A DNA stretch of 64,000 bases from Rhizomicrobium palustre (lineage in GTDB: Bacteria > Pseudomonadota > Alphaproteobacteria > Micropepsales > Micropepsaceae), in contig NZ_JAASRM010000001.1 in assembly GCF_011761565.1 (NCBI RefSeq), forward strand, positions 3,906,139 through 3,970,138, written 5' to 3'. Made by a program: the position numbers and the translations under genes. Below the pieces are notes generated by a model that did not search any database, was not told where the DNA came from, and saw nothing but the letters and a program-made list of their open reading frames with translations. Below are positions 13,119 through 13,247 of the stretch, in pieces. Position 1 is the stretch's first letter. The number at the start of each line of letters is the position of its first letter.

Positions 13119-13247
13119 GACTCCCCACTACATCTTGTATGGTAAACACCCTCGGGACTCAAAACTGAGTCAATCTAAGTCCTTGATTCACAAGACTCTT
13201 GACGGCGCGAATCGGCCGAATCACTTTGTCGTTCTGACACCTGATTC
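13119..13247. promoter_or_regulatory. Eight GANTC sites upstream of ccrM
   Basis: GANTC, the recognition sequence of CcrM, occurs at 13119, 13156, 13167, 13185, 13194, 13209, 13218 and 13243, all between rnhB and the ccrM start at 13257. With equal base use one site per 256 bp is expected, so eight in 129 bp is a strong cluster. A weak promoter-like pair (TTGACG at 13199-13204 with a poor -10) has two sites in its spacer. Control of ccrM by its own methylation state, for example through a GcrA-like factor, is inferred. Confidence 0.7.

Follow-up and report, generated by a model that had tools for sequence, protein, structure and literature searches.

Directly upstream of ccrM, the gene for the orphan GANTC adenine methyltransferase of Rhizomicrobium palustre, lies the densest GANTC cluster found in the 4.26-Mb genome, with eight sites in 129 bp (13119-13247), two of them inside the predicted core promoter of the gene. 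It is reasonably probable that this array is a methylation-gated, autoregulatory ccrM promoter working by negative feedback, in effect a methylation thermostat that replication resets. Over many of the sampled alphaproteobacterial families, in contrast to the textbook species Caulobacter, CcrM probably adjusts its own expression by way of the methylation that it has itself introduced. Positions are those of the window, the whole 64-kb stretch of DNA that was analysed.

The array is contained in the 207-bp intergenic region (13050..13256) between rnhB, which encodes ribonuclease HII (12423..13049, + strand; NCBIfam NF000594, E 5e-76, over the cut-off), and ccrM (13257..14342, + strand, ATG at 13257, 361 aa). 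The ccrM product has an N6_N4_Mtase domain (PF01555, E 2e-68) and a C-terminal RAMA domain (PF18755, E 2e-18), both over cut-off, and covers 347 of the 350 positions of the NCBIfam CcrM equivalog NF050803 with 651 bits, a score under the curated cut-off of 830, which appears to be tuned to Caulobacter-type members. Location of rnhB directly 5′ of ccrM is apparently conserved across many alphaproteobacterial families, and the same HHRRSFAP-type C-terminal codons of rnhB are found just upstream in many congeners and in distant families. Some 200 kb separate ccrM from dnaA in the R. palustre genome; with an origin close to dnaA, hemimethylation of the ccrM promoter would last through most of S phase.

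The sites start at 13119, 13156, 13167, 13185, 13194, 13209, 13218 and 13243, with successive spacings of 37, 11, 18, 9, 15, 9 and 25. A recount bears out the original prediction that eight GANTC are present in 129 bp directly 5′ of the ccrM start, and its figure of 0.5 expected by chance at equal base composition agrees with 129 x 4/1024; at the density of the window itself the expectation is 0.23. GANTC is depleted in the window (114 sites versus 280 expected from shuffles), a depletion also described for CcrM genomes (PMC3973325). When the 150 bp that precede the ATG were dinucleotide-shuffled 5000 times, the mean was 1.04 ± 0.95 GANTC and the maximum 5, and every other 129-bp stretch of the window has at most two. 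A three-site GANTC pattern has 33 matches in the genome, five of them overlapping ones from the ccrM array, and the runner-up cluster, 5 sites in 86 bp, is within coding sequence. Equally dense clusters at unrelated genes, named beforehand as an observation that would count against a special role of the array, are thus not present in the genome scan.

The generic sigma-70 scan did not find a promoter at the ccrM locus because the -10 element is degenerate (CAnnnT), and recognition came instead from comparison across families. The predicted -35 is TTGACG (13199..13204, + strand) and, after a 17-bp spacer, the predicted -10 is CACTTT (13222..13227, + strand), in keeping with the class consensus CAnnnT. 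Site 6 (GAATC, 13209..13213) is in the spacer at about -25, and site 7 (GAATC, 13218..13222), at -16..-12, overlaps the first base of the -10. Relative to the predicted start, these two sites are within the -40..+40 interval used to define GcrA/CcrM-regulated promoters and, like the site at 13243, they match YGAKTCG, the extended motif given for GcrA activation by Haakonsen 2015 as cited in PMC7987155. Site 5 (GACTC, 13194..13198) abuts the -35 hexamer and is invariant in the genus (30/30 distinct segments). Further upstream are site 4 (GATTC, 13185..13189) and then sites 2 and 3 (13156..13171), which form the inverted repeat GACTCA-AAAC-TGAGTC; site 2 is kept in nearly all aligned congeners, and site 3 in some. 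Site 1 (GACTC, 13119..13123), at about -115 from the predicted start, is the least conserved and is missing in most congeners, and site 8 (GATTC, 13243..13247), which is placed 10 nt ahead of the ATG within the predicted leader, is kept in several close congeners only.

The ccrM gene was recovered in most congeners, and their upstream regions were aligned on GACTCTTGAC, an anchor found in 31/31 genus loci, with 30 distinct segments being compared. All 30 congeners examined have at least six GANTC at the same location with nearly the same spacing, so that absence of the cluster from close relatives, the other observation named in advance as damaging, does not apply. In the 30 distinct segments the G, A, T and C of site 7 are invariant together with an A at -11 and a T at -7, and most other positions around the site vary. 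From species to species the spacer site shifts by 1-2 bases and differs in its N, and it is never lost in the congener alignment. YGAKTCG is present at -16..-12 in 30/31 genus loci versus 9/41 family loci (among the matches listed).

The wider survey covered 250 bp upstream of ccrM in representatives of 85 alphaproteobacterial families, drawn from the matches listed, and its frequencies are not unbiased for the class because those matches lean towards genomes encoding the CcrM proteins nearest to the query. In this set there are 309 upstream GANTC, compared with 87.9 ± 8.4 in shuffles (maximum 109) and with 31-86 occurrences for each of seven control palindromes of the same form. An origin of the array in chance or base composition is ruled out by these shuffles and controls, and a lineage-specific accident by the survey itself. 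In one family (L210), an in-frame tandem repeat GATTCGGGCATC... at the ccrM start, 27-117 bp before the anchor codon, yields seven GANTC at exact 15-bp steps and inflates that family's count.

TTGAC followed by GANTC within 14 nt occurs in 59/85 families (among the matches listed; shuffle maximum 4), and a two-site core, defined as TTGAC-N1-6-GANTC-N3-7-GANTC, in 34/85 (same matches; none in 300 shuffle sets). The first spacer GANTC begins +7 to +10 from TTGAC in most of the 59 families, the second begins at +19 or +20, counted from the first T, in 41 of them, and 49 have C at offset 23, 49 A at 24 and 49 T at 28, which reads as a -10 hexamer CAnnnT behind a 17-bp spacer. These fixed offsets, taken with CAnnnT, place the second site at -16..-12 with its last base shared with the -10. 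The resulting frame is TTGAC at -35, GANTC at about -28/-25 and GANTC at -16..-12, usually with more sites upstream; a site 14-16 bp before TTGAC, at about -50, is present in 29/59 families (among the matches listed), and upstream of the -35 there are 140 GANTC versus 8-32 for the control palindromes. At its N the spacer site has C 17 times, G 12, T 11 and A 10, a freedom that would be natural were GANTC as such the word being recognised.

Control of ccrM has been worked out in Hyphomicrobiales and Caulobacterales, and in Caulobacter crescentus the gene is driven by CtrA. Among 48 named Hyphomicrobiales loci the 250 bp upstream have the core in none, with no GANTC in 41 and one in seven, and the two-site core is absent at the sampled ccrM loci of Caulobacter, Phenylobacterium and Brevundimonas. 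Named loci with the core are from Sneathiellales, Kordiimonadaceae and Emcibacteraceae, and some metagenome bins with a Rhodobacteraceae or Paracoccaceae label have it too; in Magnetovibrio and Thalassospiraceae the upstream GANTC, six in number, are arranged differently. On a CcrM tree, Hyphomicrobiales and Caulobacterales are in core-less clades and the core is scattered over the remainder, with 27 changes compared to a mean of 35.6 and a minimum of 28 on shuffling, the backbone being too weak to date the core or to tell an ancestral one from repeated gain. Conservation and the fixed positions relative to -35 and -10 lend strong support to one part of the original prediction, namely functional sites with a bearing on ccrM expression; what it overlooked is that two sites are in the core promoter, that the pattern is class-wide and that it is lacking at the sampled Caulobacterales and Hyphomicrobiales loci.

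With regard to other known regulators, an exact CtrA box (TTAA-N6/7-TTAA) is present at 3/85 family loci, in a test that misses most Rhizobiales, is accordingly insensitive and says nothing on an anti-correlation of core and CtrA box. The core and DnaA boxes were not significantly associated (P = 0.25). The DnaA-box-like TTATNCACA occurs 7 times in 21 kb of sequence upstream of ccrM versus 0 in 76 kb of coding sequence, and is near the ccrM promoter in, for example, upstream regions L104, L107, L108, L122 and L126. In many congeners TGTGGATAA or TGTTGATAA is found right after the -10, where the window has a degenerate form.

GcrA, a sigma-70 cofactor at m6A promoters (PMC7403470, PMC3667746), is encoded in the R. 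palustre genome (PF07750, 165 bits). Three GANTC are within 55 bp, some 110-160 bp upstream of gcrA itself (L242 about 2030-2083, genome G000). A six-frame search did not detect GcrA in 9/34 core-bearing families (G102, G174, G171, G114, G245, G252, G251, G115 and G135), and in one of these, G102, which is complete and a single contig, there was only a doubtful match (E = 4e-4). Presence of GcrA does not predict the core (25/34 core-bearing families versus 39/51 others, Fisher P = 0.80), and with nine core-bearing genomes lacking detectable GcrA, it cannot be shown to be a universal reader.

The two-site core is found twice in the R. palustre genome, at ccrM and in front of a gene for a DivIC/FtsB-type septum protein (PF04977; G000:C1:3444556-3444600; L243, about 1501-1545). 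In a class search the septum-gene position recurs, with the pattern TTGAC-N3/5-GANTC-N5/7-GATTC, and 7/11 fetched loci (L245-L255, around 500) encode a DivIC/FtsB relative directly behind the core (tblastn). This recurrence is consistent with a methylation regulon linking ccrM and cell division.

GANTC-regulated promoters are already known, as are GANTC sites at Caulobacter ccrM. The C. crescentus ccrM promoter resembles that of R. palustre in being that of the same gene with GANTC sites; it has two (PMC10073500) rather than eight with two inside the core promoter, and in models it is expressed from hemimethylated DNA alone (PMC10073500, PMC2217572). Activation of those Caulobacter promoters that have a GANTC between -10 and -35 falls at 40-60 min (PMC4287350), and placement between -35 and -10, as predicted for R. 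palustre ccrM, is shared with ctrA P1, mipZ, podJ P2 and ftsZ. The ctrA P1 site is at -28/-29 (PMC4287350), corresponding to the first spacer site of the ccrM core (-28 to -25), and the promoter depends on GcrA and is active in the hemimethylated state (PMC4287350, PMC8116508). Caulobacter GcrA/CcrM promoters generally have one site, rarely more (11/96 promoters, PMC4287350); unlike these, the ccrM core has its second site joined directly to the -10, and it is the methyltransferase gene that stands behind it.

In the mechanism proposed, a sigma-70-type promoter (TTGACG, 17 bp, CACTTT) would have one CcrM site in its spacer, another fused to its -10, and flanking sites. Passage of the fork would leave the promoter hemimethylated and able to fire, in this genus probably with the aid of GcrA, and as CcrM accumulates the sites would be refilled and the gene shut off by its own product. 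CcrM is reported to methylate one site per binding event (PMC10073500), so a requirement to refill several sites would give a delay or threshold. We infer both the sign of the feedback and GcrA as the reader: a position like that of ctrA P1, the extra site at the -10, an encoded GcrA and the near constancy of YGAKTCG in the genus point to a loop that is on when hemimethylated, off when fully methylated and GcrA-read there. A loop of the opposite sign, with GcrA needing methylated sites, the loop sustaining itself and shut-off being due to another factor such as proteolysis or DnaA/CtrA, is rather unlikely. It would draw on the binding of GcrA to m6A GANTC with recruitment of RNA polymerase (PMC3667746), on Caulobacter ftsZ peaking when fully methylated (PMC8116508) and on the YGAKTCG matches of the spacer sites in the window. 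However, transcription of Caulobacter ccrM is described as taking place on hemimethylated DNA (PMC2217572), a loop with positive feedback alone would have no way to restart from unmethylated DNA unless there were leak, and the core is present also where GcrA is not detected.

That last feature, the low incidence of YGAKTCG at family loci and the independence of core and GcrA make a reading intrinsic to RNA polymerase, or occlusion by CcrM, a serious, if less probable, rival to GcrA: m6A at -15 (top strand) and -13 (bottom strand), in or beside the -10, would directly alter promoter opening by sigma-70 RNA polymerase, or CcrM bound at its unmethylated sites would block RNA polymerase, with no protein reader. 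Fusion of the second site to the -10 in so many families would be in its favour, as would the precedent of CfrBI restriction-modification, where the title of Beletskaya 2000, cited in PMC6237814, has expression control involve methylation at the site which that enzyme itself recognises in its operon. The analogy is one of working, in that a product may methylate the promoter region of its own operon; CcrM, in contrast, is an orphan, replication-coupled and without a restriction partner. On the other side, the further sites upstream of the -35 would be left unexplained, and the apparent absence of GcrA may be a search miss. An evolutionary extension, in which the -10 fused to a CcrM site is an ancient, RNA-polymerase-intrinsic and GcrA-independent switch that closed the CcrM loop ahead of the takeover by the CtrA/GcrA circuit of Caulobacter, the textbook circuit being a derived replacement, is speculative and on the unlikely side. 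Many sites being 9-12 bp apart (68 adjacent spacings in the survey) would suit a platform for a SeqA-like, hemimethylation-binding protein that delays remethylation or silences after replication; this as the main role is improbable, the best-conserved sites being in the core promoter and not in the outer array. Very improbable, and largely refuted, is that the GANTC words are incidental to the operator of another regulator or to an A+T-richer promoter region. The G+C content of the array region is indeed lower than that of the flanks (0.47-0.49 versus 0.60-0.65), and other families often have the longer word TGACTCA at -16..-12, but shuffles and control palindromes exclude composition, and the spacer site retains GA-TC with all four N and survives position shifts of a few bp.

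Earlier, Brilli et al. 2010 scanned the 500-bp promoters of alphaproteobacterial cell-cycle genes for GANTC, could derive no methylation control from the counts, noted a tendency of ccrM promoters without CtrA sites to carry DnaA sites, and predicted DnaA control for such cases (PMC2877005). Those counts were without promoter anchoring, unlike the TTGAC-anchored survey here. Open-licence literature yielded no account of the class-wide geometry of the core, of the site joined to the -10 or of the lack of the core in the model lineages, though these may have been described elsewhere.

What emerges is a concrete ccrM promoter, with base-level predictions, for a large part of the Alphaproteobacteria outside Caulobacter and Rhizobiales, and the suggestion that control of ccrM by CtrA, as in the models, does not hold generally. 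The array parallels in nature what synthetic CcrM feedback circuits (PMC5458116) do by design, and, if the negative-feedback reading is confirmed, would be a case of an orphan methyltransferase controlled by direct feedback, its product methylating its own promoter.
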